Below, piece by piece: positions 30,901 through 59,850 of a stretch of 64,000 nt of DNA. The position numbers and the translations under genes were made by a program. The notes under the pieces are model-generated. The model saw nothing but the letters and a program-made list of their open reading frames with translations, was not told the DNA's origin and made no database searches. How positions within the stretch are numbered: the first letter of the stretch is position 1; the number at the start of each line of letters is the position of its first letter. Origin of the DNA: Eublepharis macularius (Eukaryota; Chordata; Lepidosauria; Squamata; Eublepharidae); NCBI RefSeq assembly GCF_028583425.1, contig NC_072793.1, forward strand, positions 173,639,681 to 173,703,680. Direction: 5' to 3'.

Positions 30901-32610
30901 CTCACAAGAACCCTGTGAGGTAGGTTGGGCTGATAGAGAGCATGCACATGACTGGCCCAAGGTCACCCAGCAAGCTTCTATGGCAGATTAAGGATTCCAC
31001 CCTGATTCTCCTTGGTCCTAGTCCACCACTTAACCTCTGAATCAGACCAGACTAACTGCTGTTAAGAATGAATATAGGGCATTAAACGGCAATAACTTCT
31101 GCCCTATGTGGCTTCTTTTATGGGCAGTGAGGTTGTGCTTGAAATCGAGGCTCCTTTTTAACTCTTTGCATTAAAGGCTGTTTGCATTAAAGACCGATTC
31201 ACAGCTGCAGTTTTACACACACATACACGTGGCACTTACTCGTTTCTTCTCCTTCATCTGTTTTTTCCTGGATTGTAAGTGCATGGAAGCTGCTCCTCTG
31301 AGAAGCCGAGGATTCAGTCTCAGCTTCCTGCTTTATTTCAATTTTCCATGTCTGCTCTTGTCTTTCTAGGCGTCCCATACCTTCCAAGGAGACCTTGTGT
31401 GGTTCTTCCTCAGTCTTAATCTCCCATCTATCACCTTTTGGAATAAAGAGAGGAAAATGGTAAGATCTTAACTGGTAGAGTTTCCTATCTAGGAAAAAAA
31501 ACCCTGGCCGCCTGCTGTTTTATGTTCTTATGCCATAGTGAGTAAAGGAAACCTCCATATTCAGAGGCAGTCTACCTCTGAAACACAGTGCAAGAAGGCA
31601 GCAGCAGGTATGCCTCTGTGCTCTGTCGTTGGCCCTCCAGGACAACTTGCTGGCCACTGTGAGACAGGATGCTGAACTAGATGGGCTACTGGCCTGATCA
31701 GGCAGGGCTCTTCTCAGGTTATTTTGCTATTCTGAATAGAAAATTCTAGGGATTTTCTTATTGGATAACAGAGGTTGCCTCCTGAAATGAAACACATTTT
31801 TTTTAATTGTGGGAAAAACTGGAGATATGCATCTCCCTCACAAAGACTCAGCTCTTGGATTTCCTAGTATGCTCAAAGGAAAGATGCAGGCTGAAATCTT
31901 CTCCCTTAACACGTACCCAGCAAGGTAGTCTCATGGCCAGCCTCCTGCTTGATGCCTGGGAATGGTGGCCACCCTCTGGTGTCCAGTGGAGCCTTCTCTG
32001 CCACAGGAAAATTGCTGGCAACTTCTGCTAGAGGATCCTGCCCCTGAAAGAGCAACGAAGGTCTCAAATAGAAAGGGGGAATGAAAAAGGTTTTGTGATC
32101 TCTCTTCTTCAACAATGGTCAGATACATTTGGACAACTGGAACGGGTATTCGGATATTCCTCCCCGCATCAGTGACCCCTTGGATGAATCCGCTCTCACC
32201 TGCTGGTCCTGATACTTCTCCTCTGCCTGGCTCAGGAGGAAGCCTTCTGCCAGGGCCACTGCCTGGGAACTCGTCTCTGGTCCACATTCCCTGACCCAGC
32301 TCTCCATCTCCGGGGGCAGGATGGCCAGAAACTGCTCCAGGATCACCAGGTCCAGGATCTCCTCCTTGCTGTGCCTTTCTGGCTTCAGCCACTGGTGGCA
32401 AAGAACATGGAGGCAGCTGCAAGTCTCTCGGGGCCCCTCAGCTGCCTGATAGCGGAAGTGCCTGAATTGCTGGCGCTGCAAATCTGAGCTGGTGGTTTCT
32501 TCACCAAAGATCTTCTGCGCAGTTCTTTCCCCGAATTCCCCCCTGCTTCCAGCCTCAGCGGCACCAGAATCTCTTCTCACTTCAAGGCTACCTGTGCCTG
32601 CTTCTTTCAT
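27948..32610 (-). CDS. Gene C: SCAN + eleven-finger C2H2 zinc-finger protein
   Basis: Minimal model: exons 32610-32200 (ATG at 32610, SCAN), 32043-31917 (127 bp) and 29137-27948 (fingers); 1728 nt give 575 aa. The SCAN core has [17 protein letters not shown] and [20 protein letters not shown]; donor CAG|GTGAG. The SCAN-exon acceptor lies further 5' (TTTGCAG|GGATTTGG); the ATG at 32610 is the first in frame and aligns with gene D. The linker exon has acceptor CTTTCAG| and donor TGG|GTACGT. The finger exon starts with acceptor TTCTAG|, an acidic spacer, then eleven good C2H2 fingers and a degenerate twelfth. Three in-frame, symmetric relic exons lie in the intron and could be included. A possible 5' exon ends at 33995 (CTG|GTGAGTC), weakly supported. 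Confidence 0.82.
29170..29410 (-). repeat. 5S-rRNA-derived SINE
   Basis: On the minus strand AGGTCTCAGAAGCTAAGCAG and 'tggatgggagaccacc' match the 5S rRNA internal promoter region, followed by 'ggcaaaccacccctac'. 29410-29560 holds a fragment of a further repeat (TCATCGAGTTGCAGATGGCT). Confidence 0.8.
29640..29850 (+). repeat. tRNA-derived SINE, family 2
   Basis: Diverged B box (GGGTTCAGTTC), CTAACCTACCTCACAGGGTT and a terminal CTGAGCTCCTTGGAG. It lies in an intron of gene C. Confidence 0.65.
29960..30288 (-). pseudogene. Decayed finger-exon copy 3 of gene C
   Basis: Acceptor TTACAG| precedes 30288. The reading continues with the same acidic spacer as the gene C finger exon ([10 protein letters not shown], then [15 protein letters not shown]). 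The first finger breaks off after its first cysteine. Eroded finger sequence can still be followed to about 29.88 kb (inverse of GTGTGAACTCTGAATGAAGG). The position homologous to the other relic donors reads C|GCAAGTG at 30103; a GC-AG donor there would give a 186-nt exon. Confidence 0.6.
30400..30758 (-). pseudogene. Decayed finger-exon copy 2 of gene C
   Basis: Acceptor ATTTCAG| precedes 30758. The spacer reads [19 protein letters not shown] and continues in frame to REKSKC, where codons for S-K-C create a strong donor A|GTAAGTGC at 30567 (192-nt exon, phase 1 to 1). Below that, finger remnants are visible (inverse of GGGTTCTTTGATGGGCAGTA) but not open. Confidence 0.6.
30815..31060 (-). repeat. 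tRNA-derived SINE, family 2
   Basis: On plus: TTTATCCTCACAAGAACCCT, 'gcccaaggtcacccagcaag' and an inverse head near 31050. It sits between relic copies 1 and 2 of the gene C finger exon. Confidence 0.7.
31100..31434 (-). pseudogene. Decayed finger-exon copy 1 of gene C
   Basis: Acceptor CCAAAAG| precedes 31434. It encodes [19 protein letters not shown] and then an acidic spacer to EETSKC, where a donor A|GTAAGTGC falls at 31240 (195-nt exon, phase 1 to 1). Traces of one finger remain to about 31.1 kb. It directly follows the 127-bp exon in phase, so it could be spliced into the gene C message. Confidence 0.6.
31540..31725 (+). repeat. LINE-like interspersed repeat fragment
   Basis: CTCCATATTCAGAGGCAGTC and 'ggatgctgaactagatgggc' match the family at 10.5, 34.4 and 55.3 kb. 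Intronic in gene C. Confidence 0.5.
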
Positions 32611-37084: not shown

Positions 37085-37291
37085 CTGCATGCACACATGA
37101 AGCTGCCGCATACTTAATCAGACCATCAGCACTTCAAGGCCAGTGTTGCCAGCAGCTCTCAGGTGGAGGTCTTTCCCATCACCACCCACTTGATATTTTC
37201 AGCTGGGGATTGAACCGGAGACCTTCTGCATGCCAAGCAGATGCTCTTGCACTGAGCCACGGCCCCTCCCGGCACTGGCTGCTGCATGCAC
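37085..37291 (-). repeat. Family-3 SINE inserted in the last coding exon of gene D
   Basis: The SINE (37095-37281) is flanked by 10-bp direct repeats CTGCATGCAC at 37085-37094 and 37282-37291. On the minus strand it begins near the gene with a tRNA-like head (CCGTGGCTCAGTGCAAGAGC, B box GGTTCAATCCCC). The insertion lies just after the final histidine of the last finger, so translation reads into the SINE and stops there at 37199-37201. Confidence 0.88.
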
Positions 37292-40200
37292 TCTTTGATG
37301 TGCTGTAAGGTTTGTGCTCCTGTTGAAGCGCTTTCCACACTCGGAGCATTTAAAAGGTTTCTCCCCGGTGTGAATTCTCAGGTGATTCCTGAGACTGGAT
37401 TTATCACAGAAGCTCTTGCTGCAGCTAGAGCACTGATACGGTTTCTCCCCTGTGTGGATTCTTTGATGCGTAGTAAGGTATTCACTCCGACAGAAGCTCT
37501 TCCCACACTCCGAACATTTGTACGGTTTCTCCCCTGTGTGGGTCCTCTGATGTCTGAGGAGGTTTGATGCGCTGCAAAAGCTCTCTTCGCAATCTGAGCA
37601 TTTGTATGGTTTCTCCCCTGTGTGGATCCTCTGATGTCTGAGGAGGTTGGATGCGCTGCAAAAGCTGTCTTCGCAATCTGAGCATTTGTAGGGTTTCTCC
37701 CCCGTCTGCGTATTTTGATGTGAAATAAGTCTTGCACTGCAACTGAAACCCTTCCCATATTCTGAGCATTCAAATGCTTTCTCTCCCATATGAATTATCT
37801 CGTGGTTTCTAAGGCTTGACTGATCACAAAAGGTCACACTGCAGTTCGAGCATTTAAAGGGCTCCTCTGCTGTGTGGATTCTTTGATTGCAAGTAAGTTC
37901 CTGTCTGTGACAGAAATTCTTTCCACACTCCAAGCAAGTTTTTGGTTGCTCTCCCATGTGGGTTCTTTGGTGTCTTATTAAGGTGATCCTCTGACAGAAA
38001 CCCTTCCCACAGTCAGAGCAAGTGAACGGTTTCTCTCCGGTGTGGATTCTTTGATGACATATGAGGTTTGTACTCTTAATGAAGCTCTTTCCACACTCCA
38101 GACATTTATAAGGTTTCTCCCCTGTGTGGATTCTCCAGTGAGCATTAAGGCTTGATTTAGAACTGAAGCTTTTCCCACACAAATGACATACATTCTTTTG
38201 CTTTCTTTCATCTATTTTTTCTTGGATTGGGTTTTGGAAGTCCATTCCCAGCCAAACAAATGATTCGGTCATCAACTTTTCTTTGACTTCGGTTTTTGCC
38301 ACCTGCTCACCCTTTTTGTGGCCATCTCTTTCGAAGGACAGCTCACATTGTTCTCCCTCACTTTCCCACCAATCAGATGCTGTGGAGGGATCAAAAAAGA
38401 ACATTTTGAAGATAGTGAAGGGAGGGAAATTGAGCCTGGACTCTAACATAGATGGACATTCACTTACAGAAAGTATGACACAAAGCTCCATTCAAGCTCT
38501 GTTCAAGCAAGAGGCAGGAGGGAAGGATTCTGTCCTCTTCCTGCTCCCCTGCACTCCACTTTCCACTCCAAACCCATATGGCTATTACTCCACCGTGTTC
38601 CTGTAAGCTCAGGAATATATTTTTTTTGCAAATGGCTGCTGGAGGGGAAGGGAGAACTGGAAGACCTGCAGGCGTTGGGCATTTTCAGCTGACACATCCC
38701 GGTATGGTGGAACAGTCTGAACTTGGATTATGGAGACTCAAGATTCAGCCACCAGCTAAGCCGCAGAGCTCATTTGTTGGCCCTTCAGCCAGTTGTCCAT
38801 AAATTACAGTGAACACACGTACAATCTGTCTGGAGTATACAATGTATTATTTTTATGTGCATTCAGAAATTCCCATGTTACCTTCCATGCACGTACAGTT
38901 GAGCGTGGCACTGTAATATGCCAAATGTGGGGCTGCCTTTGAATACCGTTCAGAAACTTCAATTGGTCCCAAATGTGGGGGCCAGGCTGCTGTCCAGGGT
39001 TGGTTACAAGGATGTGCTGAAAGATCTGCACTGGTTACCCCTCCATTTAAGGGCACAATTCAAACTGCTGGTTCTAACCTTTAAGGTCCAAAACAGCTTG
39101 GGCCAGGGCACCTGAAGGGCTAGCACATCTCATACTATCCAGCCCACTAGTTCTGATGATCTGCCACTCAAGCCCTGCCGCCTGCTCTCCTTCCTTCAGA
39201 GAGCAGGCGGCAACTAGAAATAGGTCATGTCTTGTGGTGGCATCTCACCTTTGGAACACCTTCCCCCTTGAAACTCACCTGGCATCTACTTTCTTTTAGG
39301 TGCCAGGCCAAAATACATCTTTTTACCCAGGCTATTAATTAGGGGCTTTCGCTTGCCAGCTTTTTAACGGTCTTCTTCTGTTTTATGGATAGTTTTTGTG
39401 CGGCTTATTATGCCCAATGGCTTGTGTTTTAATGCTGTGGTTTTTAATTGTAAGCCAGGATTCTGAAGAGGTGGCATAGAAATATGCTAAATTAATAAAG
39501 AAATCCAGGTACTGGACCCTTGTTTCATTTTGTAGAGTGAGCACTTGCTAGCTCTTATAGATCAGTGTATGCACATACAGGCAGGATGTACGAGGGTTCA
39601 CTGTAACATGTGAGCAGGGCTTCAAGCTAACCTATCTGAAATGATTCTATTAACAATCTGTTGTGGCACAAATAAAATAAGAGTTTAGCATTTTAGTGAC
39701 TGATGAAATTTGCTCCAGCATAAGCTTTCGTGAATCAGAGATTGTTTTGTTGAATGCGCTAGACTGCTCATCCGTTAAGCAGGTATGTTTATACTTAATA
39801 CCACAACCAAGAAAGAGCATCACGAAGTTAGGCCTGTTTAAAACAAGATCCAATCCAACAAGTAAACCTGCCATAAAATCAAATCCAAAGAAGGAAAGGA
39901 CTCGGTGAAACTAAGCAGATACAATTAAATAAAATTATAAAAGAGCTAAAGGTTCTCGGAAATGGAGTTGGGTATACTGCATATACGACTTTGAGACATG
40001 CAGACATTTGCGGCAGACGATTCTGTGCTGTGTTCATATAACAGAGAACCATTATGCTGGAGTCCAGACATTTGTTCCAATCTAAGGACATGAGAGAGAT
40101 GTGTCATTTTGCTACTCATAATAGCTTGCCTTTCACAATATGACTTACAATATTCCTTTCCATGATCAGGTCTGCTCCCCTAAAAAAACTTACAATGAAA

Positions 40201-42755
40201 AGTCATCATTTTAGTCACTAGATGGTATTAATAATAATGGGTGATGGTTGTTGTGGGTTTTCCGGGCTGTATTGCCGTGGTCTTGGCATTGTAGTTCCTG
40301 ACGTTTCGCCAGCAGCTGTGGCTGGCATCTTCAGAGGTGTAGCACCAAAAGACAGAGATCTCTCAGTGTCACTCAGTGTCTCAGTGTCACTGAGAGATCT
40401 CTGTCTTTTGGTGCTACACCTCTGAAGATGCCAGCCACAGCTGCTGGCGAAACGTCAGGAACTACAATGCCAAGACCACGGCAATACAGCCCGGAAAACC
40501 CACAACAACCATCGTTCTCCGGCCGTGAAAGCCTTCGACAATACAATAATGGGTGAGGTTGAGAGAGCTCTAAGAGAGCTGTGATTGACCCAAGATCCCC
40601 CAGCTGGCTTCCAGTGGAGGAGTGGGGAATCAAACCCGATTCTCCAGATTAGAGTCCCACTGCTCTTAACCACTACACCAAACTGGCTCTCAAAGTGTCA
40701 GAGCCAAGTTCAAATCCTCACTGTGCCCTGGAAGCTCACTGGGTGGCCTTCAGCCAGTCACACCTTTGCTGCCTAACCTACCCCGCAGGGTTGTTGTGAG
40801 GATAAAATTGAAGCAAGGAGAATGATATAAGCCGCTTTGGGGTCCCTATTGGGAAAAGCTGAAGTGGAAATGAAGTAAATAATAATTACATGAGGCAGCC
40901 TTATAACGAATCAGACCCTCACCCTATCAAGGTCAGGGTTGACTCCTCTGACTGGCAGCAGCTCTGCAGAGTCTTACGGAGAGGTCCTTTCACATCACCG
41001 ACTACCCAGTCCCTTTAACTGGAGCTATGGGGAATTGAACCTCAGACCTTCTGCATACCAATTTCCCAGAGTTGAAACCCTCTCTGTAATCCTAGTCCTA
41101 CTGCATTGTTACTGGAGGTCTTGTCCCGTTTGATTGAATTGCTGTTTGTATTTTGGAATCCACCTTGAGTCTCAGCAAAAAAGGTGATTTGAAAACACGG
41201 CAGAGAAAGGGAGTTTCTAAGTCAATAAATAAGTAAATGAAGATGGGTCCTTCCTTACCCAGAGAGGCCACATTCTGGCAGTTCTCCTCCATAACTTCCC
41301 TGTACAAGGCTCTTTGGCCCAGATCCAAGAGATTCCACTCCTCCTCAGTAAAATATAGACACACCTCCTCCAACGCCACCAGACCCTGGAAGGGCAAAAA
41401 CAAAGAACACACACACACACCTTCGCCTCGAGCCCATTACAGAAGAGTCACTGAGGCCAGTTGATTGGGGGAGACTTTGGATCCTAAGGGGTGGCCATCA
41501 AAACCTTGGAAAGGAAGATTTGACGGAAGCAAAGTGAAAGAGAGGGATCCTCTCTGGTTCAGGGAGATGCCAAGTGATGATGGAATCACAACTGCTCGTC
41601 TCCCCGGCGGTCCCTTGCTTACCTGCCCCAGCTCTGTTTGATCCACCACTACCACTTCTGGTTCATCCCAAGGAAGCGATGGCACGGAATTGACTGTCGC
41701 TGTCTTCACACAGCCTGCAAGGTGACACAGAACCGGCGGGAAGATCAGTCATCCCTTCATACCCCATTTTTATATTTGGTGTGCATTTTAACACCAAATA
41801 GTGGTGCATTTGAAAAGGCATCTCTCCACTCCTGGCCACAACGCCAAAAGCCCTTTTGGACATTCTTACCGAAGGAGCTAAAAAAAGTTTTAAACAAACA
41901 AACGAGCGACTCTGAGGACAATTGTCTCCTGCATGCAGCCCCAGGTTCTGGAGCTTTACTCGGGTCCAAAGAAGTTCCATGTCTCCTTACTCCACAAGGG
42001 GCCATGCTGGTCAGGCTCCGGCACGAGCTCCACGAAGAGCAGCCCCTGTCCGACCATCTCTCCTTCTGGGGGCACAGCAGGAACGTCTATTGACAGGTTC
42101 TGTGTCTGAAACATCAATGAAGATCCCAAAGAAGGAACAGGGAAAAGGCCTGGGGGACAGAAAAGAGGAGTGGCCAAAGAAAGATTGGGGGGGGGCACAA
42201 CCCATCCACCCACAGGGGATTATTAGGATATCCTCACTCGCACTCTCAACTCCTTGGAGAAAGCCCCCTCACCTGTCCTCCTTGCTTCTTCTCCTCTGCC
42301 TGGCTCAGGAGGAAGCCTTCTGCCAGGGCCACCGCCTGGGAACTGGTCTCCGGCCCACATTCCCTGACCCAGCTCTCCATCTCCGGGGGCAGGACAGCCA
42401 GGAACTGCTCCAGGAGCACCAGGTCCAGCATCTCCCTCTTGCTGTGCCTTTCAGGCTTCAGCCACTGGAGACACAAATGGTGGAGTCGGCTGCAAACCTC
42501 TCGGGGCCCCTCGGCATCCTGGTAGCGGAAGTGCCTGAAGTGCTGGCGCTGGGCATCTGAGCCACTGGCTTTCTCTCCCAAGTTCTTCTGCCTCATTCTT
42601 TCCCAGAATTCCCCTCTGCTTCCAGCCTCACTAGTATCAGGGCCTTTTCTTGCTTCAGGGTCACCTAGAGCTTCCATCTTCTTCCTCACAGCTCTTTCCC
42701 CAAATTCTTCTCTGCGTCCAGCCACAATGGCATTTGGACCAACCAAGTTTTCCAT
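37199..42755 (-). CDS. Gene D: SCAN-KRAB C2H2 zinc-finger protein
   Basis: Five coding exons: 42755-42273 (SCAN, ATG at 42755), 42105-41991, 41714-41623, 41385-41259 (127 bp, KRAB-A) and 38379-37199 (fingers). Phases 0, 0/1, 1/0, 0/1 and 1 fit and 1998 nt give 665 aa. SCAN has [24 protein letters not shown] reads [15 protein letters not shown] then LYREVMEEN; the VMEEN form differs from the MLE-containing KRAB best known for TRIM28 binding, so TRIM28 recruitment is uncertain. There are eleven finger units: unit 4 lacks its first zinc histidine (Asn) and unit 6 has lost a cysteine (Tyr) and the last histidine (Gln). Units 7 and 8 are near-identical recent duplicates. The C-terminal tail after the last finger is SINE-encoded. 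Expected role: nuclear DNA-binding repressor-type factor. Confidence 0.88.
38880..39510 (+). repeat. L2-like LINE 3' end
   Basis: The decayed frame shows [12 protein letters not shown] and [19 protein letters not shown], typical of the C-terminal part of L2-like LINE reverse transcriptase ORFs, then an A+T-rich 3' UTR. It lies in the last intron of gene D. Confidence 0.75.
40222..40690 (-). repeat. Family-1 SINE carrying a later fold-back insertion
   Basis: The inverse SINE body resumes at about 40557 (GAGAGAGCTCTAAGAGAGCT, inverse head TTAACCACTACACCAAACTG near 40685). Its 3' (ATT)-rich tail is at about 40222-40244. The two parts are separated by the fold-back element. Confidence 0.8.
40233..40556. 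mobile_element. 300-bp fold-back element with 12-bp target duplications
   Basis: The element is 40245-40544, between direct repeats AATAATGGGTGA at 40233-40244 and 40545-40556. Arms 40245-40372 and about 40386-40515 are near-perfect reverse complements, e.g. GCATTGTAGTTCCTGACGTT against AACGTCAGGAACTACAATGC. The right arm extends about 30 nt further than the left. Each arm contains CTGAAGA, a GCCAGC/GCTGGC stem, then GAAA, a hammerhead-like core. It codes for nothing. Confidence 0.88.
40690..41240. repeat. Family-2 SINE (+), family-3 SINE (-), L2-like tail (+)
   Basis: 40690-40892: CAAGTTCAAATCCTCACTGT, CCGCAGGGTTGTTGTGAGGA. 40893-41075: inverse family 3 (TGACTGGCAGCAGCTCTGC, inverse B box GGGGAATTGAACCTCAGA). 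41085-41240: CCACCTTGAGTCTCAGCAAA. All lie in the intron between the KRAB and finger exons of gene D. Confidence 0.7.
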
Positions 42756-44867: not shown

Positions 44868-45350
44868 CCAGGCTAGCCCGATCTCCTCAGAGCTCAGAAG
44901 CTAAGCAGGGTTGGTACTTGGATGGAAGACCGCCAAGGGAGTTTGGGGCTGCCATACAGAGGCAGGCAATGGCAAACCACCTCTGCTCATCTTGTGCCAC
45001 GAAAGCCTCATAGCCCCCTGGTTTCCAGTGGAACTAGGGCTCCCAGCCTTCAGCTGGGGCCCAGGGATCTCCCAGATTTACAACTGATCTCCATTCTACT
45101 GAGATCAGTTCCCCTGGAGAAAAAGTCTGCTACGGAGGGTGGAATCTCTGGCATTACACCCTGCTCAGGTCCCTCTCCTCCCCCAATCCTGTCCTCTCTG
45201 GGCTCCACTCCCAAATCTCCAGGATTTCCCAACCCAGAGTTGGCAACATTAAATGGAACTGATTTATGTAGTCAGAAGATCACTCATAATTCTGGGAGAT
45301 CTCCTGGCCCCCACCTGGAGGTTGGCAGCTGGACTTGGGGGAGAGAGTAT
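44868..45350 (+). repeat. 5S-rRNA-derived SINE and a 200-230-bp repeat
   Basis: 44868-45020 has CAGAAGCTAAGCAGGGTTGG, TACTTGGATGGAAGACCGCC (5S internal promoter) and GGCAATGGCAAACCACCTCT. 45030-45350 is the short repeat (GGGATCTCCCAGATTTACAA, CTGGAGGTTGGCAGC). Confidence 0.8.
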
Positions 45351-47504
45351 TGAACTCCTTGCTGAATGAGAATCAAGTTTTAAACTGGCCTTTCTCTGTA
45401 GGATATCTTCTCCCCCCACTTATCTTGTCTGCAGCTTTGTCTCCATACATCTAACCACTGAACACTTCATGCAACCAAGGAAGCCACCTCTAACTCAAGA
45501 GAGGTTTTGCTGGAAGAACTTTTCCTAGTCTGTAAGCACTCCTCTTTGATTTAACCCTTTGATTGACTCTCCACAAGGAAGTGAAGCGCAGAGTCGCTTG
45601 GTCCTAGAAAAGAGAACACAATTCTCCCCTCAGATTCAGCAATCTGGACTGGACCAGCTGGGGCACCACTGTTCTTTGTACAAAGAATTATACACCCATT
45701 TCATGGGTGCCTGGACTTTGAAATGTGCCACCACACCAAGCTCTTTATGTCCAGGTGTAACCCAGAAGTGTCACTTCATGGGAATATGGGTAAAATGCTA
45801 GTGAGAGATGCAATTCAGCCTCTCGCTTCTGACCTTTTCCTTCTTCTTCAGTTCTTAGCACTACAAACTTCAGGAATTCCTGGGGGTGGTGGAGGCCTGC
45901 CTTGGAGTGTTTTGAGCAAAAAGCATGCTTTGGACTGGGCGTCAAACTCTGGCAGCTGGCACAACAGCTGGATGTATGATTCGGAAAGTCTGGGGTTTAT
46001 TTCATAGAGCAGCAAACACCAGTTCCTTATTACAGGAGAACCAGCCTGGTGGAAGGGCCAGGTTAGGACCTGGAAGACTCACATTCAAATTCCTGCTCTG
46101 CCACGGGAACTCAGTGGGTGACCCTGGACCAATTACTCGCCCAGCCTAGCCTTCCTCACAGAGTCGTTATCAGGATAAAATGGAGGATGGGAGAACAATA
46201 TAAGCTGCTCTGGGTCCTTACCGGGGGGTGGGGGGTGGGGAAATGGGTTAAAAATATCTCAATATTCTTTCATTCCTAGCAATGCAAATGTATGGGTATT
46301 CCTGGAAGACCTTGACTTTGAACCACACACTCCAAGACACTCTCTTGAATCTGGGCACTTATGAACTTGGGCGATCCAAAACTGTACTTGTCCTTGTCCT
46401 TGGGACAATCCAAGTCCCTCAAGGGCCAGGGGCGGCTGGACAGCGGGGGGGGGGGGGGACTGATGGGCCCGTGACCACTTCCTGCAAAGCCCCAGAGAGC
46501 AGCCTTCAGCCAGGATCTGCTGCTGGTGTTTGGGGCTCCATGCTGTGTGTATCACACAATGGTGTGTATTTGGGTCAATCCCGTGTACTTTTGCTTTGAG
46601 GACATTTTTGTCTGGGCAAAGGGATGAAAAATAAATGAACCACCTCTTCAGACTTCCATTTCTGTGTCAAACATCCTGCGAGGCTGACCTGGCCTGAGTT
46701 AACCAGCAGTGTCGAAGTCCCCGAGGGAAGGTCTGAGGGCAATGTTGCCAGAACAAAGTGTGTGTGTGTGGGGGGGGGGGATTCCAGGGAATTCTTCACC
46801 ATTGCCCCAAAGACTGCAGGGTACATTGCACATAGCAATTTATTTCACCAAGGAACTACAGTCACATCAATCCCAGGGGAACTTCCCCCTCAAATTCCTT
46901 GGTGTTTTTAAATGTCAGAGAGGGAGGGAAGGAGAAACCAATCAAGCCAGAATGAGGTCACACAGATGCAATTAAATTGAAATGTTTCACTACTAAAAAG
47001 CTATATAAGGACAACGTTGTGATAAAGGTATCATATCTATCCCAGAAGAACATCTTCCCCAATTCCTTATCCTAGGTGCTAAACAATATCACAGAGGGTG
47101 GGAAGGAGAAACCCACCAATGTAGAAAGGGGTCAGACAAATGCAATGAAGTTCTAGTAAGGGGTTGGGACAATCCCCTGGTTTGAATCCTTACTTTCCTT
47201 TTATCCAATGTTTTTTTTTTCTTTTAAAAAAGAGGTGCCAGAATTTGAGTTGTTTTCTCCTCTCAGCCCAAGCCCCAAATGCTCAGGAGGTGCCAGTACT
47301 GCATAAAGAGATGCTGGCACTCTGTCCTGGCACATGTCCCCTGAAAAAAAGCCTTGGTTTTATACAGTGGGGAATAGGAGTCTCTCCCCCCAAAATCTTC
47401 CTGAGCCAATCCCCAAACCAAGCTGAAGTTTTAAAACATGTATTTACTGAACAGTGTATAATCATTCTTCAATTTAAATGTTTCTGTATTAAGAAGATGC
47501 CCTA
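45350..47504. other. Intergenic; one SINE recognised
   Basis: 46020-46240 is a family-2 SINE (+) (CCTTCCTCACAGAGTCGTTA). 46441-46459 and 46742-46780 are poly-G and (TG)n/G runs. No gene was recognised. Confidence 0.4.
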
Positions 47505-47715
47505 GCCTGGATTGCCCAGGTGAGCCTGATCTTGTCAGATCTCAGAAGCTAAGCAGGGTTGGCCTTGGTTAGTAATTGGATGGGAGACCTCCGATGAAGG
47601 CCAGGGTTGCAGAGGCAGGCAATGGTAAACCACCTCTGTTAGTCCCTTGCCATGAGAACCACATCAGGGTTCGCCATAAGTCAGCTGCTATGACTTGAGG
47701 GCACTCTCCACCACC
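47505..47715 (+). repeat. 5S-rRNA-derived SINE (best copy)
   Basis: CTTGTCAGATCTCAGAAGCT, AAGCAGGGTTGGCCTTGGTT and 'aattggatgggagacctccg' track the 5S rRNA box A-IE-box C region. The family body (GGTAAACCACCTCTGTTAGT) and a short terminus follow. Confidence 0.85.
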
Positions 47716-49437
47716 ATATTAAGAAGATTTATAAGGACTAGGTTAAATAAAGCACAACCCACAACTAAGTCAACACAAAAGAGACAATTACTTTTGAGAT
47801 TCTAACTACGTGCATGTTTGATAGGTGTGCTGTGGTTAAATCATAATTCTAGAGAGATTAGAGATTGAAACAGTTTTTAAAAGAAGGAGATCAGACGCGG
47901 GTTGTATGGTCAGACTCGTGCCATTCCCGAGGTCTCTCCCTTGGAATCTGGTAACATACAACAGGTTTTGCGTCTGTTCTTGACCTTGTTCCTCTTGGCA
48001 GGAGGCAGCTGTGGGTCAGGTACCACTGAGGCCCCTTTAGCAGAAGCTGTCTTCGGACTGCGCCACTCAAAACTGGATGACTTTCCGGCCCTTCTTTCCT
48101 CTCTCAGAAATTACCCCTAGCTTAGCTCTCCTTTGAAAACTGTGAGAGCAGAGAGATGGGCGGAAAAACACATCTGAAGCTACAGACAATCCACATGGGC
48201 TAGAGTCCACAGCTGGAATCCTTCCTTGGGATTTTCATCTCCTGAGAAGCGCTTTCCTTACACCTTGGGGACACCTAGTCTTGCAACCCTTTTGAAGGTT
48301 TTTGAACTTGACTCAGGTCCAGTTGAGCATCAGCAAAAGACTTTGGGTTGGAAGTTACTTGGCCACTGGGTGGCAGTTTCAGCGTCCACGCATAGTGGCT
48401 GTATCCTAGTGGAAGGATGCCGTGGACCTCTTCCACATCCAGTGGAACTGGGAGGGGCTGAAGACCACTTCCTTCAAACGGTGATTAAAATAGGACTCCC
48501 CCCAACTCTCCCTTTCCAAGTCTGCATTAGAAACCTGGTTAAATGGCCGCAGCAGAAAAGAATCCCGCGGCATCAAGAAAACAGCCCTCAGGTAGAACGG
48601 AGAACGTGACTTCTTCCAAGAGCTGGAGGCTCTTCTGTCCTCATCCTGTTCCAGCTTCTTGCCAGCTAAACATCTTCTCCGACACAGAAGGGCCAGTGGG
48701 ACCAAAAAGCATCAAAAGAATTGCACAGCCGGAGCACACGGCAAGACTGCATGATGGGCCAGGAGACACTCTGGTCAAGGGTCACCTCGGCTGTGAACTC
48801 ACTCAGTGGCCTTAGCTACAGCCACTGTAGAAAGGTACTTACTGTACTGGATTAAGCTGTGGGGGACCTGTGGGAGACTTAGCCTTCAAGCTCACTGGGT
48901 GGTCCTGGGCCAGACGCGCTCTCACTCTCTCATCCTAATGTACCTCACAGGGTTGTGAGGATTGTCAGGAAATTCACTTTGTTGGTTTCCTGTCAAAACA
49001 ACTGGCAAAGCAGTTAATTGGGATTTGGTTTTCAATCTATCGGACTTTGGTTTGTGGCTGGCAGAGGCAGTTAAGTTGAGGGCCTTTTTCCTTGAAGGCC
49101 CTTCTCCCCACCCCCTTCCTTTTAAGATCAGGGAATGAAATTGTTCCTTGGAAGCTGACATTATTGGTGCCATAGCTCTCAGACTAAGAAGCTAGAGCTT
49201 TTCTCGGGAGGTGTCAAGATCTCACGATAAAGGCCTTGGGCTGTCCAGCTCTTCCATTCCAACTAATTAGCACAAGGCTTCTTGGAACTTGGAACTTTTT
49301 CCTCCCTCACACCTTCAAGGAACAGTAATGGCAGAACTAGTTTCATAGGCCTGTTCGGCTAACTTATGGGCACCCTGCTGGCAACATGCCCTATAAAAGA
49401 TAGCTTTTATTCCTTCTTGAGGAAGTGTGTGGATGAG
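47716..49437. other. No recognised gene; SINE piece and possible LTR-like fragment
   Basis: About 48870-48960 is a family-2 SINE fragment (CCTCACAGGGTTGTGAGGA). From 48963 a segment beginning TGTCAGGAAATTC and holding a TATA-like CTATAAAAGA near 49392 resembles an LTR, but I see no matching end or second copy, so it is only a possibility. Open frames near 47.9-48.8 kb show no family I recognise. Confidence 0.3.
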
Positions 49438-51595
49438 GGGTGTGCACCTCCTAAAAATTCCAGATTCCTACTTTGGATTTACCCGAAGCAGGAAAAAAAC
49501 CTGTTTCGGGTTTGGGTATTTAAGTCGATTCAGGATTATTAAGGAAGGTTTGGCCATTGTTTCCAATGGGAAACGCTGCTTGTGGCTATCTGAGGGCCTG
49601 GGGGGGGATTTTCTTCCGTAATAATCTCAAATTTGCAGGAGACGCTATCCCAACCCTCCTCTCACAATCACCCAAGTTTCAGCGAGATTGGACTTCGGGG
49701 GTGGGCATGTTATGGCCCACCAAAGAAGGTGCCCCCAGCCACTGCCCATCTCCATAGTTCCCTAAGGAGAAAATGTGGAGGATCATTCCTAGGTGGCTGG
49801 AGGTGGAATTTTGCAAGCAAAATGCACCAAACCTTCAGGGAACCCTTTCCCAACACTCCTCTCATGACCATCCAAGTTTCAGGGAGATTGGACATTGAGG
49901 GGCCAGGTTATGGCCCCCCAAAGTGCCCCATCTGCATTATTCCCTACTAGCAACAAAGCCTGTTGTAACAAAAGTGAAGCTTGCCCGCCACTGCTCGATC
50001 CCCTCCTCGCCCCCCAGGATCGCAGCTTGTAGGGGGGGGGCAAGGCAGGTGAGCAAGTCTTGCGTGGCTTGCCTGCGCTGAACCATGATTCTTTATGGCG
50101 AAAACTAGTGGGGCGTTCTAGGAGGCGGAGTGTGCGTGTGGCATTTTGCAAGCAAAACGCACCAATCCTGCAGGGGACCTACTCCTACCTGTCCTCTCAA
50201 GACCACCTGAGTGTCAGGAAGATTGGACTTCGAGGGGCCATGTTACGGCCCCCCCAAAGAAGGTTGACCCCAGCCACCCCACTGGTTTCTACTGCAGGAA
50301 AATCCAGACTCCCACAGTAGAAACACATGGACTGTGGAAGCAATGCACTTCCACTTACCATCCACACCCCAAACAGCCCAACAGAACCAAACCGAAGCCC
50401 ACCAAAAGCCCAACACCCCCAGAGCTGGCTGGCCAGCCACTCCCCATTGTTCTCTATGATGAGAACTTTTAAAATTTCTTTTCCCAGGGGCACTTATGCA
50501 CAGGGCCTGATGTGAAGTTATCCCTTCAATGACCAATATAGAAAGATCCCATACGAGGACAGATGCTGCCGTTGCGCCATTGGTGAAGTGGAATCACTTA
50601 TTCATATGTTCTTTCGCTGTCCTTTCCATCAAGTCTATAGGTACAAGTTTATTTCCCCACTCTTAGACCAATTGCAGAGGCAAATAAGACCTGCCTGGAG
50701 AAAATCCTAATTGATGAAAATCCAACTATCTCCAGGCAAATAGCCAAATTCTGTCTCCATTTGGTTAAATTCTATAATAAAAAGTATAGTCATACATAGT
50801 CTGTCCTGCTCTTTTTACGATTTTAACTATTTTAACATCAATGTTTTAAATATTAGAATTACTGCGGTTCCCAGAGAACTATATACATTTTAAATGCTAA
50901 ATGTATTTTTCTATGTCCTTTACATTTTTACGCAGGATTTAACTATTCTATTGATTGCTAAGGTTGTATTGCCATTGTTATGGTCTCTGACCGCAAATAA
51001 ATTCATTCATTCATTCATGCATGCATGCACAGGGCCAGGATGCCACTGCCGAGGCACGCTCCTGAATGCAAGGTCATCCCTGGGAAAGCCAAACAGAACC
51101 AAACACACAGAAACGCCCAGAGCAAGCTGCCCAGCCAGCGCCTTGTTCCCTATGAGGACCAACCTTCACATCAGAGAATCACACTAACAAAAATGCAATT
51201 TAAATAAATTTACTTTATTAGATTTACTGTAGCAGCTGCCATTAATGTTACATTAATATTACATCAGTATTAAACTATTAAAAGAGGGAACCCCCCCCCA
51301 CGTTGGCTTCAGCCTGAAACTGTGAGACACTCTTTGGGAACCCAAGGAAATCGCTATGTACAGCAGTAGCTTTCATCATCAGCCAACGTTACTCCCACCC
51401 TGAGACAGAGGAAACCAAACTGAACACTTCAGTGAGGAAAGTGTAGTAAGTAAACAACCATCATCAACAGTACACAGCATACGGTTTTAATTCCCTGTCT
51501 TCCTGCTGGTGTTCTACCTAAGTTTACTTGTAGGAAGAGCGTTATTCTGTGGATCACAGATTTGCAGAGGATGCAGGTCACAAGGAGAGCTCACC
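49438..51595 (-). mobile_element. Probable non-coding (3') end of the gene E hAT element
   Basis: The left limit resembles a hAT terminus (AGGGGTGTGCACCTCC). Three diverged subrepeats follow at about 49.59-49.76, 49.78-49.94 and 50.11-50.28 kb (shared words: CAAGTTTCAG, AGATTGGACTTCG, TTATGGCCC). Two further related segments are at about 50.36-50.46 and 51.06-51.18 kb (CCAAACAGAACCAAAC-like). A LINE fragment interrupts the block. A minus-strand AATAAA at 51214-51219 follows the gene E stop by about 380 nt. That this and the transposase form one element is inference. Confidence 0.5.
50496..51036 (+). mobile_element. LINE fragment with 12-bp target duplications
   Basis: The insert is 50508-51024, between direct repeats ATGCACAGGGCC at 50496-50507 and 51025-51036. 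The 5' part retains a decayed LINE ORF2 C-terminus with a cysteine-histidine knuckle (RCCRCAIGEVESLIHMFFRC). The 3' UTR ends in an (ATTC)n tail. It is truncated at the 5' end and broken. Confidence 0.75.
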
Positions 51596-54195
51596 TCATT
51601 CATTCTGGAAGTCCACAGCCGAGAAATCGAAGAGCCGCATGTTGACCTTCAGGAAGATCAACTGCTCAACTCTCCAGGGGAGCAGGCGAGTGCAATGCGA
51701 GCTGACCATGTCGCTTGCATAGGAAAAGACACGCTCGCTCTCCACGCTCATCGGAGGGCATGAAAGGAGACTCTGCGCCTCGAGGGAGAGGTCTGGCCAG
51801 ACCACCTCCTTCTTGGCCCAGTAGTTCAGCGGATCGGTGGTAAGCAACTCGCAGGGCTCTGCAAGGTAGTCCCTGACCACTGCCTCTGCCGTATCCTGGC
51901 TCATGCGCTTCACGTTCCCAAAGGGGCCGAGGGCACGCTGGAGCATCTCCATCTCCCTGAACATCCCAACGGTGGCTGCGGGGGGAGCCTGCTGAGAAGG
52001 GGTGGGAGGGGGACCTGCAGAGCTGGGCCAGCCCCCGGGGCCCTCTGCTCGCAGGAGGCCCCTCTTGGCCTGCCTACGCCTCACCCGCAGACAGAGGGCA
52101 TCTCTGGTGCTTGCGAGGTTCCCAGCCCGCTCAGCGAAAATGCCCTTGATGCGTGGGTCGCACATGGTCGCCAACAGGTATGGTTCCTTCTCGATGAGTG
52201 GCTGCAGATGGGATGTGATACCCTGCTGCAGCCTTGTCACGAGCGCGCACACTCCTGGAACCAGGTCTGCACGTGGTGCATCTGGGTCCACGAAGGAGGC
52301 CATGGCACTCTGGAGCGTATGTACCAGAGGAATGACCAGACCCAAGGTCATCGTGTCAGACGAGACCGCCACGGTGAAGTCCTTGAACGGCTTCAAGACC
52401 TCCACTGTCTGGGAGATGGTGAGCCAATCCTCTTGGCTGAATTCACCCACCTGCCTCCAAGTGTCGCTCTCTGAGAGCCATGCCTGGAGGGCCGCCTGCT
52501 GCTCCACCAAGCACTCAAGCATGGCACAGGTGGAGTCCCATCGAGTTGCCACATCGGTTACCAGGCGATGCTCCGGCACGCCTGTCCCAGCCTGCTTCTG
52601 GCGCAGTTCGTGAGTGGACTTCACGCTGCGTGAGAAGTGACTCGTGAGTCTCTGACATTTCTGCAGGAGATCCTGGAGCTCATGAGTTGCAGGGTCCTGG
52701 CTTTCCTGGGAGGAACCCATACCGAGCGCATCCTTCACCAGGAGGTGAACTTTGTGGGCCACACAGTAAATATGCTTGTGGCCCAGTTGCGCCACCGCTG
52801 CCTTCATGTTTGCGCCCCCATCTGTCACCATGCATCCCACGGTGATGTTGCCCTCGCCTACCCAGTCTTCTAACGCCCTCCTCAAAGTGGCTGCAATGCT
52901 CTCCGCTGTGTGCGACACATCGAGAACCTCGGCGTGGAGCAGAGCCTTGCAGTAGCCAGCCCGGCGGTCTCCCATCCATCCCTGCCTGATGCTGGGCATC
53001 CCACCCCCACCCTGAAGGTCCTCGGGTTGCCACCAGTGCGCAGTGAGTGACAGGTATGCACGTTGCGTAATAGGACAGGTCCAGATGTCGGACGTGAAGT
53101 GCACAGTTCTCCCGGCAACCTGGGACAACTGTGCCTTCACGTGGTCCCTGGCAGCCCTGTATAAAGAGGGCATCATGGTCCTGCTTAGCGTGGTGCGAGC
53201 AGGGATTGTGTACCAAGGGTAGGCATCATGAAGCAGCCCCCGGAAGCCGAAGTCGTCCACTACGGAGAACGGCTGCCCGTCGATGGCAATCATGTCCATG
53301 ATCAGCCGTGTGATGCGCCTAGTAGCCCTCTGGATCCCCTCTCTGGGCACACTAGTGCCCTGCATATCAAGCATCTCCATCAGAGAGGCTTGCTGTCCCT
53401 GCCCTACAGGAAATTGTGGAGGGAGAGCACCAGAGAAGCCTGCCTCCTGCTGGTAAGTTGGCAGCTGTGTGGTCCCACCTGAACTCTCCCCCCGAAGAAG
53501 CACCACCTGGTGTTGCCGCTTCACGTGATTCCTCATGCCAGACGTGGAGAGATGATTCACGTCCCTCCCTCGACTGATCTGTGCCCTACAGTGCTTGCAC
53601 TGAGCAAACCGGCGGTCCTCCAACCTCTGGAAATGTTCCCAGACGTCGGAGGAAATGGGGGCACCACGCCGTGCAGAAGCTGCGTGTTTGGGCTCCCCAG
53701 GAGATGCCTCTGCTGAGGTGCTCACGGAGGGCTCACCATGCCCTGGCTTAGCAGTCAAAGATGGCTGAAGCTGAAGGGGAAGAGATGTAGCCTCCACACT
53801 CTCTTCCTCTGGCATCCTCTTCTCCTGCATAGCCGTGAGAGGCCTGCTGCTGGCCTCAGAGAACGCTGGGGAAGTCCCACCGATGGCGGGCCTCTCCAAC
53901 ATCCTCCGAGTCCCCAGGGTGAGCGTGAGGGACGGAAAACTCATGTTCCCCGCATCTACCTCAAGGGACTCCTCATGCTTCCCCTCCTCCCACTGCTGCG
54001 TCTCAACAGCTGGAGGAAGGGGAGCCTCAGCAGCAGGCCCCTGCCCAGGGCCAGCTTCTGCTTCAAGCACCTGGGTTGGGGGTGACTCTCCAGCGCCTGC
54101 ATCAGCAAAGAGGGCCTTGCCAACCCTCTTGCTGTCACCCGAAGCCAGGCTGGTGAACGGCAGCGGCGCTGGGGAGGTCCTCCTCCTCCACTTAG
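51596..54195 (-). mobile_element. hAT-superfamily transposase coding segment within gene E
   Basis: The hAT-derived part of the last exon is distinctly GC-rich compared with the AT-rich fingers beside it. The boundary is sharp near 54190-54200, where the seventh finger stops after its two cysteines. The BED finger, the DDE candidates, the CxxH and RW motifs and the SERVFS/LKVN dimerisation block are all present. No terminal inverted repeat or 8-bp target duplication is visible at the right boundary, so it does not look like a simple intact insertion. Confidence 0.85.
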
Positions 54196-55079
54196 GTGCA
54201 AAGTTCTTTCCACATTCTAAGCATTTATATGGTTTCTCCCCTGGGTGGATACATTGATGAATGATTAGGTTGGCACTGTAACCAAAACTCTTTCCACACA
54301 CTGGGCATTTATATGGTTTCTCCCCAATGTGGATTTGTTGATGGGAAGTAAGCTGGGTACTCTGAGCAAATCTCTTTCCACACTCCAAACATTTATATGG
54401 GTTCTCCTCAGTGTGTGTACGTTGATTGGTAGTAACATCTTTACTCCAAGCAAAGCTCTTTCCACACCCCAAGCATTTATATGGTTTTTCCCCTGTATGG
54501 ATTTGTTGATGGGAAGTAAGGGTGCCACACTGATCAAAGCTTTTTTCACAGTCTAAGCATTTATATGGTTCCTCTCCTGTGTGGATTCGTTGATGGGCAG
54601 TGAGCTGTGTACGTTGAGCAAAGCTCTTTCCACACTCCAGGCATGTATATGGTTTCTCCCCAGTGTACGTACATTGATGGGTAGTTACATCTATACTCTC
54701 AGCAAAGCTCTTTCCACACTGTAAGCACTCCTTGTTCTGGGGACAATCAGGTTCTGGAATAAAGAGAAAAGACTGGTAAGATCTTGAAAGCAGAAGCAGA
54801 ATCAAGGAAAGAAGGCCATTAATGAGCCTCCTTGCTGGTCTCCTACCTGGGTGGGGGAGCTATATAACCATCCACCCTCCCCCCACGCATGAGCAGTCAT
54901 AAGATATTGATCCAGTCCTCCACCCTTTTTATATATGGTGAGCAGGTGGACTTCTTGAGATGTTTGTGTTTGGGACCTATGATTTTACTGTATTTCTCTA
55001 TTTTTACTCCTTATTGTAACACATTCTGAGCTCGCTCGGGGAGAGCGGGCTATAAATCAAATAATACTAAGACTAAGAT

Positions 55080-55138
<59 letters not shown>

Positions 55139-58100
55139 ATAATAATAAATTACGCTTGACAATGACTGAACATAAATATCTTGATGGAGAGACAAGTTAT
55201 GCCACATATAAATCAGCTTTTATTCTTCCTTGGAGTTTTGTTCCATCACAGACAGGGCAGGTGACTCTCTGGAACCTCCATGTTTAGAAGCAGTTGCCTT
55301 CTGAAGGCTGGTTGCCAGCAGGGCAATCCCAGGGGGCGGCTTTGGTTCCTTTCCTCTCCTCATGAACCTTCCAGGAACTCTAGTTGGCCACCGTGGGAAG
55401 CAGGAGGCTGGATGAGAAGGGACTCTAGCCCATCTATTTCTATAGTCGAACACAGAGCACAATGGCTTTCACTCGACAGCCAGTAGGACCCAAATTTAGA
55501 CCCAAATTACGGGCACCTAAGCAGAGCTCCCAATTTATAAAGCTCACTGGGTTGGTCATCAGCCAATCACTCTTTCACAGTGATTTTTGTCTCACAGGGT
55601 CATTGGGCAGGTAACTGGAATGACCTCGCAAATGCTGCTTGTACTAACAACAACAACAACAACATTCAATTTATATACCACCCTTCGGGACAACTTAACG
55701 CCCACTCAGAGCGGTTTACAAAGTATGTTATGATTATCCCCACAACAAACATCCTGTGAGGTGGATGGGGCTGAGAGAGCTTCTAGAAGCTGTGACTGAC
55801 CCAAGGTCACCCAGGTGGCTTCGACCTCCCTTTCACATCTGAAAAACCTTTCCTAGGTGTTCTCAGTAGTTTCCTCTTGAGAAATCTCTCCGTTCTCCAG
55901 CAGTTGAAGGTTTGCCAAAGAGGTCCTATCCAGATACATGAGAAAAAGATCGGCAACGCAGAAACAGATACATACCTGCTGATCTCTCTCTTTCATCTAG
56001 GTCCTGGAAAAATAGGTTGCTGTTTCCTTGCAGCTTGGAAGTAGAATCAGGTTTGGCAACCAGAAGTGCTTCTTCTGGGGAAAGAAACGGACCAGTTAGT
56101 TCATAGGAGGGGAGTGGGGGCTATTGCTTGGATAAAGAAGCATCTCTCTTCTGATGGTGGCCCGGAGTGGAGAAGAAAGGAGCAAGGAACTTCAGCCCTA
56201 GCCCTGACAGAGCCACCAGAATGGAGTGCCTCGGCCTCCTCCAAAGGCAAGTAGGAACCACCCGCCCAGTCTGACACCATCTAAAGCGGCTCTGATCACA
56301 GGTGATCAGGTGGTGATGGATCCTGAAGACCAGGAACTCCTCCTAACAATCGGAAAATTCGTTGAACACACATAAATATGATTTTACTGATTAGAACAGT
56401 TTTTTCCCCCACTCCTCCTGGAGGGGGCTCAAAACAGCATTTTCCTCCAGCCCAGCACCCTTCTGGCAAGACCTGCTCCTTTGATTTTCCTATAAGTGAG
56501 ACACGTAGGAATTTAGAAGGTGAAGCTCTTTGTGACATAGACCAAAATTTCAACTACTAAAACCCTGATTGTCTTGGTTCGTTCTGATGCGTTGGAGCAC
56601 TGCCACCTTGCTTTCCCACACGTGTGGGCCAAGCCTAAGCCTACACCGGTGTAAAGAGAATGAACACAGCAGATTTAACCAAATCCTTCCCTTTGCCCCC
56701 CTCCCCTCCTCACGTCCCATGACATTTCCTTGCCTCAGAGCAAGGAAGTGTCATCTTGTACTTTGTAAATGCACATCGAGGGCCCTGTGTAAACACCAAT
56801 ATTCTTATTATTTCAAATGCTAGTTTCCTCGACTTCTCCGAAAGGCCCCTGGGGAAGCCAAGTTGACCTCCTGGAGGCCAATCCTCTCTCCTCCCTGTTT
56901 TCAATGGACTTCTACCTGCACTCAGGATTTTGTGACTCTGAAGAACAATGAGATGTTTGTTTCATTCAAAGCCCTTCATCGCCTAGATTCTTTTGGACAC
57001 GGCCTTCTGCAGATATCACCCTGCAGCTGGGCTAAATCAATACCTGCTCCTACATGAGCAATGTCATGTCTGTGTACAGCCATGTCATGATTGTTTCGTT
57101 GTTATGTCACTGATGCCACAGTATATTGAATGTTTGATGCTAACTGAATGTATTCTCTCCTTAGCCACGTTCTTTCCCATATTATAACTGTTATTTCTCC
57201 AGGCCTTCTAACTAGAGGGGGCCTCTCAAGTTATCTCACAGAACTATGCATCTCAAAGCCAGAGACAACGTTGGAGATTCCAGACGCCTGCTACATTGCT
57301 CAGATGCTGGGAACCTGTTATTGTGTACTCATTGTTTAACCATAACTAAAAAGAGTTTTTTCTCACAGAACTCGAGTGGAGTTGCGCGCCCAAAATCCTG
57401 ACAGTTATTTGGGAGCGGGAAAATCAAGTATAACAGTGCTTATCTGCTTTGCCTTGTCACTTCTACCAAGCTCCGTGATGAAGTTCAGACCTGAACTGTA
57501 AAGATCCTAATAAAGCCTTTCTACTGGAACCAATGTGTGTTCACTGGAGAGGGGCTGAGGGGTCTACCTGCCAGGAACTGACAAGCTTTCTCTGTGGCAG
57601 CCCCCACCTTGTGGAATGGCCTGCTTGAGGTCGAGAAAGCTCCCACACGCCTGGCCTTCTGCAAACTATGCAAGGCTGAAGTACTCAGGAGGGCTTTCTA
57701 CTCAGATTATAAGGCAATGGCATAAGAAATAGCTCAAAGAGATAGCATGGAAACGGACAGGCACTATAGACTAGACTATTGGGTACTGTCTGCTGATGTA
57801 GATGCGCTCCCACTGGGCGATTCAACGTTGCTAAAGAGGTCATGTTAATTACTTACACTTCAATTCAGAAAAGTTTCATCTTTGTATACAGCTTTATGCT
57901 TGTTTTCAAATTTGCTGCTGCCGTATCCTATTGTATCTGTTTTTCATTGACTGTCCTAACTGTTGGTCATACCGTACTTTGCTCAGTGAATGTCCTAGCT
58001 GTTGATTATATTCCACCTTGGATCTTAGTAAGAAAGGCAGACTATAAATAGCAACAACAATAACAACAATAATAATTCAGCACCTGTCACTCAAGGGAAA

Positions 58101-58542
58101 GGAGAGCCTTACCCAGAGAGGCCACATTCTGACGGTTTTCCTCCATGACCTCCTTGTGAAGGCGTCTTTGGTCCGGATCCAGCAGGGCCCACTCCTCCTC
58201 CGTGAAGTATACAGACACCTCCTCCAAGGTCACCAGGCCCTGAAAGGAGAAAGAGGAAACCCCCTCTCCTTACAGATAATGTAACAATCCTTCCCCTTCT
58301 AAGCAGACTCCAAATGGACTACAACTAGATGTTCGCTTTCAGAATTCAGATCCTCATCAGACGATTTCATTTTCTGTCTAGTGATTATCACAGATAGCAG
58401 CCAAGGGAAAGAGAGAGAGAGATACTCTCCAGCTTGGGGGGGGGGCAGGCCCCCGGAACATGATCCGCAGCCCCAGACTCACCCCTTCTGGCTGCATGGA
58501 AGCTTCTTTCTCGTTGCCACAAAGAGATGGCAAAGAATACAT
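51596..58542 (-). CDS. Gene E: KRAB-C2H2-BED-hAT transposase fusion protein
   Basis: Exons: 58562-58483 (translated from ATG 58542), 58239-58113 (KRAB-A, 127 bp), 56074-55976 (KRAB-B, 99 bp) and 54753-51596 (fingers plus transposase). Phases fit; 3444 nt give 1147 aa. KRAB-A near residues 21-62 has [13 protein letters not shown] and EVMEEN. Six finger units follow (units 1 and 4 each lack a zinc histidine), then half of a seventh ([10 protein letters not shown]). At about residue 283 the frame passes directly into hAT sequence: a Pro/Glu-rich segment, BED finger near 465-510 (CKHC, H-x4-H), candidate catalytic residues Asp651 (TSDIWTC), Asp740 (VTDGGANM) and Glu1102 (SVESERVFS), CVAH near 759-762, Trp834 (TRWDS) and a C-terminal hAT dimerisation region. 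The transposase part has no stop over about 865 codons. Known parallels: ZNF862, ZBED9. Likely a nuclear DNA-binding host-transposase fusion; activity unknown. Confidence 0.85.
55076..55150. repeat. (TAC)n/(AAT)n microsatellite
   Basis: About twenty consecutive TAC units followed by AAT units, in the intron of gene E between the KRAB-B and finger exons, at the end of an L2-like tail (CTATAAATCAAATAATACTA). Confidence 0.85.
55245..55830 (-). repeat. LINE-like fragment and family-1 SINE
   Basis: 55248-55440 matches the 10.5/31.6-kb interspersed family (GGAACCTCCATGTTTAGAAG). 55645-55825 is an inverse, head-truncated family-1 SINE ((AAC)n, CCCTTCGGGACAACTTAACG, CCAAGGTCACCCAGGTGGCT). Confidence 0.65.
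56380..56940. other. Intronic, nothing recognised
   Basis: Between the KRAB-B exon and the LINE/LTR block of gene E I see no exon-like signal and no element I can name. Confidence 0.35.
56945..58085 (+). repeat. L2-like LINE 3' end split by an LTR
   Basis: The left part (about 56945-57061) has GGCCTTCTGCAGATATCACC. The right part (about 57589-58085) has CCCCCACCTTGTGGAATGGC and ends 'tgttgattatattccacctt', GCAGACTATAAATAGCAACA. The same consensus runs uninterrupted at 35.5 and 19.3 kb, so the LTR arrived later. Confidence 0.65.
57062..57588 (+). mobile_element. Probable solo LTR (fossil), about 527 bp
   Basis: It starts TGTCATGTC and ends GGAACTGACA (TG...CA), with an AATAAA signal near 57510. 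It interrupts an L2-like LINE. Short flanking similarity (AGC) hints at a small target duplication. No internal coding region accompanies it. It is an LTR-retroelement relic of undetermined family. Confidence 0.5.
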
Positions 58543-59414: not shown

Positions 59415-59850
59415 ACTACCTAGATGAAACCCTCTCGCCTGCTGCTCCTGACTCTCGCCCTCTGCCTGGCTCAGGAGGAAGCCTTCTGCCAGGACCACTG
59501 CTTGGGAATTGCTTTCCAGCCGGCGTTCCCTGACCCAGCTCTCCATCTACGGGGGCAGGATGGCCAGGAACTGCTCCAGGAGCACCAGGTCCAGCATCTC
59601 CTTCTTGCTGCACCTTTCCAGCTTCAGCCACTGGTAGCATAAATGGTAGAGCTGGCTGCAAACCTCTAGGGCCCTCAGCCTCCTGGTAGCAGAGCTGCCT
59701 GAAGCACTGGCACTGCATATCCAAAGGGAGGATGTTGTCTCCCAGGCTGTTCTGCCTGGTTCCCTCCCACAGTTCCCTTCTGCTCCCAGTTTCAGTGGCA
59801 TCAGGATCTTTTCTTGCTTCCGGACCAGCTGGGTCTGGCTCTTCCCTCAT
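59415..59850 (-). pseudogene. Broken SCAN exon of gene E
   Basis: Clearly homologous to the gene D SCAN exon ([43 protein letters not shown]). A two-base loss within the GPREV coding stretch shifts the frame. A G-to-T change turns the Glu codon after LAILPP into TAG. The donor is CAG|GCGAGA instead of GTGAGx. Gene E has therefore lost SCAN. Translation most likely starts at the ATG at 58542, just upstream of KRAB. Confidence 0.85.

Follow-up and report, generated by a model that had tools for sequence, protein, structure and literature searches.

A predicted KRAB-C2H2-BED-hAT fusion gene, probably retained, in a zinc-finger gene cluster of Eublepharis macularius

Analysis of a window of 64,000 nucleotides (the whole stretch of DNA considered here) revealed a minus-strand gene in which a KRAB box, a short array of C2H2 zinc fingers, a BED finger and a near-complete hAT transposase are joined by predicted splicing into a single reading frame, and the best reading of this arrangement, which we consider probable, is that the encoded KRAB-C2H2-BED-hAT protein has been retained by its host. 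Comparisons with related copies of the same genome favour retention over a fresh accident, because the transposase part of the window copy carries no lesion where each of the 29 other old copies read is broken, and because its dN/dS lies below that of these dead copies. The architecture, the phases and the open junction proposed for this locus in an earlier note, made from the letters alone, were found to stand, and the decay of the host gene, with a dead SCAN exon and two of six fingers lacking a zinc ligand, counts against retention.

Coordinates of the features are collected in Table 1. The minus-strand frame at 54859-51596 runs over 1087 codons from stop to stop, in agreement with the earlier claim of a frame open across the finger/transposase junction, and predicted splicing of three 5' exons to the last one gives a single frame of 1132 aa from MQPEG; the 1147 aa previously announced are reached from an in-frame ATG at 58542, 15 codons upstream. 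In this gene model the splice signals and phases that had been proposed were recovered, with GTGAGT, GTAAGG and GTATGT donors, three CAG acceptors and compatible phases. Besides KRAB, Pfam identified C2H2 fingers, zf-BED (E=1.3e-12) and Dimer_Tnp_hAT (E=5.9e-13) in the long frame, the latter two above the Pfam cut-off, so that the BED finger said to be intact is found again, together with the dimerisation region of hAT transposases. Of the two KRAB exons formerly named, KRAB-A is recognised, whereas the other gave no match in Pfam and its designation as KRAB-B rests on position and resemblance. The C2H2 array contains six complete fingers, four of them canonical by pattern; a zinc ligand is missing in the two others (last His replaced by Tyr in finger 1, first His by Asn in finger 4) and a seventh finger is cut by the junction. 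A KRAB box with a C2H2 array in a later exon is the layout of KRAB zinc-finger genes, and host domains sharing a continuous reading frame with a transposase, here through predicted splicing, that of host-transposase fusions. Comparison of KRAB-A with that of the neighbouring gene gave a dN of 0.146 and a dS of 0.731, and ungapped comparison of the fingers with ten paralogous stretches gave ratios of 0.37-0.54, which are not independent, three loci having provided an identical stretch; neither KRAB-A nor the fingers appears neutral, on values that include the paralogues' own branches. Two signals, ATTAAA (51491, minus) and AATAAA (51219, minus), lie about 100 and 380 bases beyond the stop and might terminate the transcript within the element.

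Table 1. Features of the fusion gene, of the hAT element and of the surrounding cluster (positions in the window)
Feature	Position	Strand	Basis or remark
First coding exon (MQPEG)	58483..58497	-	Donor GTGAGT; predicted from sequence only
KRAB-A exon	58113..58239	-	Pfam KRAB E=3e-20 (within 58242-58087); splice sites
Exon in KRAB-B position	55976..56074	-	Splice sites; no Pfam match
Last coding exon, opening part: six complete C2H2 fingers (four canonical) and truncated seventh	54199..54753	-	
Last coding exon, fingers into hAT transposase without stop	54753-51596	-	
Finger/transposon DNA junction	54198..54199	-	Starts of matches to genomic copies; probe search
hAT transposase frame including stop: BED, core, dimerisation region	51596..54198	-	Pfam; alignment to copies
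Remaining hAT element, 5' end lost	49435..54198	-	3' terminal repeat at 49435-49446
LINE 3' end nested in hAT element	50508..51024	+	12-bp duplications 50496-50507 and 51025-51036
Decayed SCAN exon of fusion gene	59415..59760	-	2-base deletion, TAG stop, donor GT to GC
Four other SCAN exons in window	4524-5378, 18046-18966, 32194-32526, 42312-42611	-	Good Pfam SCAN matches
Four further long frames, 9-11 C2H2 motifs each	93-1214, 13354-14529, 27951-29156, 37202-38491	-	

The four further multi-finger frames place the window in a cluster of zinc-finger genes. The gene at about 42.6-37.2 kb displays SCAN, KRAB and fingers in this order, and other finger arrays of the window are likewise preceded by SCAN exons. 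The fusion gene shares with these SCAN-KRAB-C2H2 genes a SCAN exon upstream of its fingers, but its own is dead, its finger array is shorter and a transposase has been added. The lesions of this exon are defined relative to the four other SCAN exons; Pfam recovers only two fragments of it (7.9e-14 and 0.0038), the other four scoring 1.5e-37 to 1.2e-40, and its private changes at codon positions 1, 2 and 3 number 9, 9 and 2, respectively. The dead state of this exon makes clear that coding sequence out of use does not stay intact at the fusion locus, and that the host gene had either changed role or was dying.

The fingers and the transposase are joined as contiguous DNA within a finger and inside one exon, with no splice in between, since the window element matches a complete relative only from position 3682 of the latter, the part 5' of it being missing. 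This relative (L043) is an element of 5.9 kb with short terminal repeats and a flanking 8-bp duplication (TGTCTGAA), which are marks of the hAT superfamily; the window copy keeps the 3' repeat alone, about 1.39 kb having gone, 5' repeat included. Matches begin at 54198 when the genomic copy belongs to the nearest subfamily and 10-13 bases further on in the others, and a 36-base probe spanning the join was found at one place genome-wide with up to three mismatches allowed. The locus is therefore single-copy, and loss of the 5' end leaves an element unable to move as a unit. The element extends beyond the coordinates of the earlier note, which stop at 51596, as far as 49435, and a LINE is nested in it. 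The transposase, described in that note as complete, is nearly so: compared with an open young copy, whose frame has 918 codons, it begins at residue 40, about 33 residues beyond the first Met, and thus lacks about 33 residues at its N-terminus. The motif SVESERVFS and a 14-residue segment are the same as in the open young copies save for one residue, and we take these segments to hold the putative acidic catalytic residues of the hAT transposase. A stretch of 62 residues in the C-terminal region matches the Hermes transposase (four chains, E=8.1e-7 to 2.3e-6). As for an insertion of the hAT element into the finger exon itself, it is without support: comparison of the sequence downstream of the element (45000-49434) with 11 paralogue loci and with the first 44 kb of the window revealed no zinc-finger sequence and dispersed repeats only.

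A DNA search for copies of the window type, in which the best 40 of 4803 candidates were scored, provided 29 other copies that were cut out and read. Lesions were counted as in-frame stops and frame changes lasting at least 30 bases, a threshold that guards against alignment slips occurring in pairs, which otherwise gave counts of 15 and 14 for two open young copies. All 29 copies are broken by a stop or a frame change (28 of them by a frame change), with means of 4.2 frame changes and 3.7 stops per copy, and the window copy has none in 2598 bases; an open frame is thus unusual for an old copy. Many near-identical copies elsewhere, which according to the earlier note would have spoken against its interpretation, were not found: among the 39 other places scored (best 40 of 1948 candidates), the closest shares 87% identity with the window copy over 601 bases, and these places give no sign of a recent burst of the window lineage.

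The LINE nested in the element offers a minimum age. Its 3' end (517 bases; zf-RVT E=3.7e-4, under the Pfam cut-off) has a short ATTC-type tail and is flanked by perfect 12-bp duplications, the whole occupying 50496-51036. Fifteen of the 29 other hAT copies align across its site with a gap of at most 7 bases (in the other 14 the alignment stops short of it), and this empty site implies that the LINE is younger than the hAT insertion, except if it had entered before the last jump. The own branch of this LINE among 12 other LINE copies is 0.028 substitutions/site long (the best 40 of 655 candidates were scored and 12 of the 39 other full places used for dating), which suggests an insertion age of at least 0.028 substitutions/site. 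With 219 lesions for 2.479 substitutions per site, dead copies accumulate 88 lesions per unit; about 2.5 are expected at 0.028, and the probability of having none by chance is then about 0.09, falling to 0.012 at 0.05, 0.005 at 0.06 and 0.0004 at 0.09; dead tips are 0.05-0.17 long.

Selection on the transposase was evaluated with trees and codon fits including 28 of the 29 dead copies read (L030, with a coverage of 0.85, was omitted); a second fit omits L047, which is the window itself, and L048, located at the same place as L022. In the maximum-likelihood tree the window copy forms a separate branch, and its ratio of third- to first-and-second-position branch length, 1.91, is the highest of the 29 tips, as compared to 0.67-1.61 for the 28 dead ones and 1.59 for the internal branches summed. 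The codon model comprised the window, the 28 dead copies and two young ones, with one omega per branch class and relative lengths fixed for all branches except that of the window. It gave a dN/dS of 0.458 for the window branch (95% about 0.35-0.61, an interval that covers the active-lineage value), 0.81 for dead tips, 0.57 for the active lineage and 0.62 for internal branches, and each of the 28 dead tips taken singly lies above the window (0.60-1.15). Fixing the window dN/dS costs 28.5 in 2dlnL at a value of 1 and 15.5 at the dead-copy value, the latter cost being 11.6 after masking gap-prone codons, 12.1 after masking CpG-prone ones and 8.8 after masking both. By region, dN/dS is 0.15 in the BED finger (based on 48 codons), 0.37 and 0.44 in the core, 0.30 in the dimer region, and 0.74 and 1.01 in the linkers. 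The window branch spans mobile-element time as well as time after insertion: with a pre-insertion dN/dS of 0.57, a neutral tail is disfavoured (2dlnL of 2.4 without such a tail, 5.8 with 0.05 and 10.1 with 0.09), whereas with 0.4, 0.3 or 0.2, neutral tails of about 0.02-0.09 fit equally well or slightly better than a uniform branch. As this branch also covers the period when the element was mobile and under selection as a transposase, purifying selection acting since the fusion, which we infer, is favoured and not proven, and if the insertion is young, pre-insertion selection could explain the dN/dS signal.

The following origin could account for these observations. A SCAN-KRAB-C2H2 gene of the cluster would have been joined, in the DNA itself, to a hAT transposon situated downstream of it and oriented alike, most simply, we infer, by a deletion. 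This deletion would have taken out the last part of the finger array together with 1.4 kb at the start of the element, the frame being kept by chance. Transcription would then presumably depend on the host promoter, which would drive a protein composed of KRAB, four canonical fingers, the BED finger, and the hAT core and dimerisation region, most likely kept as a DNA-bound repressor. Its BED and hAT parts may direct the protein, assembled into dimers or into larger complexes, to hAT ends or remnants, where KRAB, which acts through TRIM28, would recruit silencing. This putative mechanism of transposon-end targeting and KRAB silencing, and with it any action of the protein on a hAT family, is assembled from known parts. 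A further reading, which we regard as unlikely, is a domain replacement in which the SCAN oligomerisation domain and part of the finger array were lost and the DNA-binding and multimerising parts of the hAT transposase adopted, yielding a KRAB-armed transposase copy that acts on the ends of its relatives; if true, these relatives, among them the young hAT family with many open copies in this genome, would be silenced, their transposase assemblies perhaps poisoned, by a protein born from an in-exon DNA join and not from splicing.

A recent accident could also have led to this locus, a hAT lineage without other close copies having inserted late and been deleted into a decaying zinc-finger gene, too young to be broken. 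The dead SCAN exon and the two defective fingers would be expected from it, the low dN/dS may predate the insertion and, at the minimum age given by the LINE, openness by chance keeps a probability of about 0.09; however, none of the 39 scored copies exceeds 87% identity, the dN/dS of the window is lower than that of the active lineage, and chance openness becomes improbable at the ages of dead copies, which makes such an accident somewhat unlikely in our opinion. We find it quite improbable that the host keeps the transposase part but expresses it separately from KRAB and the fingers, whether from an internal start or from a different promoter: although the constrained regions are the structured hAT ones and part of the finger array is defective, one uninterrupted frame, kept in phase, leads from KRAB across the junction, KRAB-A is intact and the element has lost its own 5' end. 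An assembly artefact at the junction is hardly credible, nothing having been found in its favour, while each side continues as expected, with fingers resembling those of the same cluster and an element running to its 3' repeat, and the 36-base junction occurs once.

Fusion of a host regulator with a transposase is a known route to new transcription factors, and ZBED9 represents a parallel host-transposase fusion. A review reports 106 host-transposase fusion genes from 94 events in tetrapods, with hAT among the commonest sources and capture of the transposase via alternative splicing (PMC8616336). KRABINER, from vesper bats, is described in the same review as a KRAB fused to a full-length mariner transposase that represses at cognate sites (PMC8616336). 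The retained protein proposed here likewise combines a host KRAB gene with a whole transposase in one frame, but its transposase is of hAT instead of mariner type, it arose from a DNA join inside the finger exon instead of splicing, and it is a prediction from sequence. Splicing capture is a usual route and not a requirement for such genes, and the in-exon join of the finger array to the transposase, as contiguous DNA, differs from the splicing route reported in this review. ZNF862 is described as containing KRAB, TTF-type zinc fingers and the hAT C-terminal dimerisation region (PMC8856651); judging by this published description, it is similar to the present fusion in associating KRAB with that region, and differs from it by its fingers, which are here of C2H2 and BED types, and by the near-complete hAT part found here. 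In the Hermes octamer, the left end of the transposon is bound by BED domains (PMC10368747); unlike the fusion, Hermes is an active transposase without host domains. No description of a C2H2 array joined to a hAT transposase inside one exon was found in the literature searched, to which the main survey of fusions does not belong, and absence from print is accordingly not claimed.

Dead copies of the donor family and a sister family with many open copies are present in the same genome, so that one can directly compare how a transposase was captured, how its relatives decayed and how live ones might be controlled. In a protein search, for which the best 52 of 12536 candidates were scored (51 of them other places), 49 of the 51 other places display a stop-free frame of 918-921 codons, at 68-69% protein identity. 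Two open young copies that were compared are 98.7% identical, and a recent movement of this sister family is suggested. Its homology continues beyond the 9-kb stretches examined, within which its terminal repeats were not reached. Examples of the sister family in the genome (G000) are C9:59693829-59696462 and C9:93617019-93619652 (L049-L052); two of its copies taken with wide flanks share more than 8 kb of homology, and long tandem repeats occur in the non-coding part.
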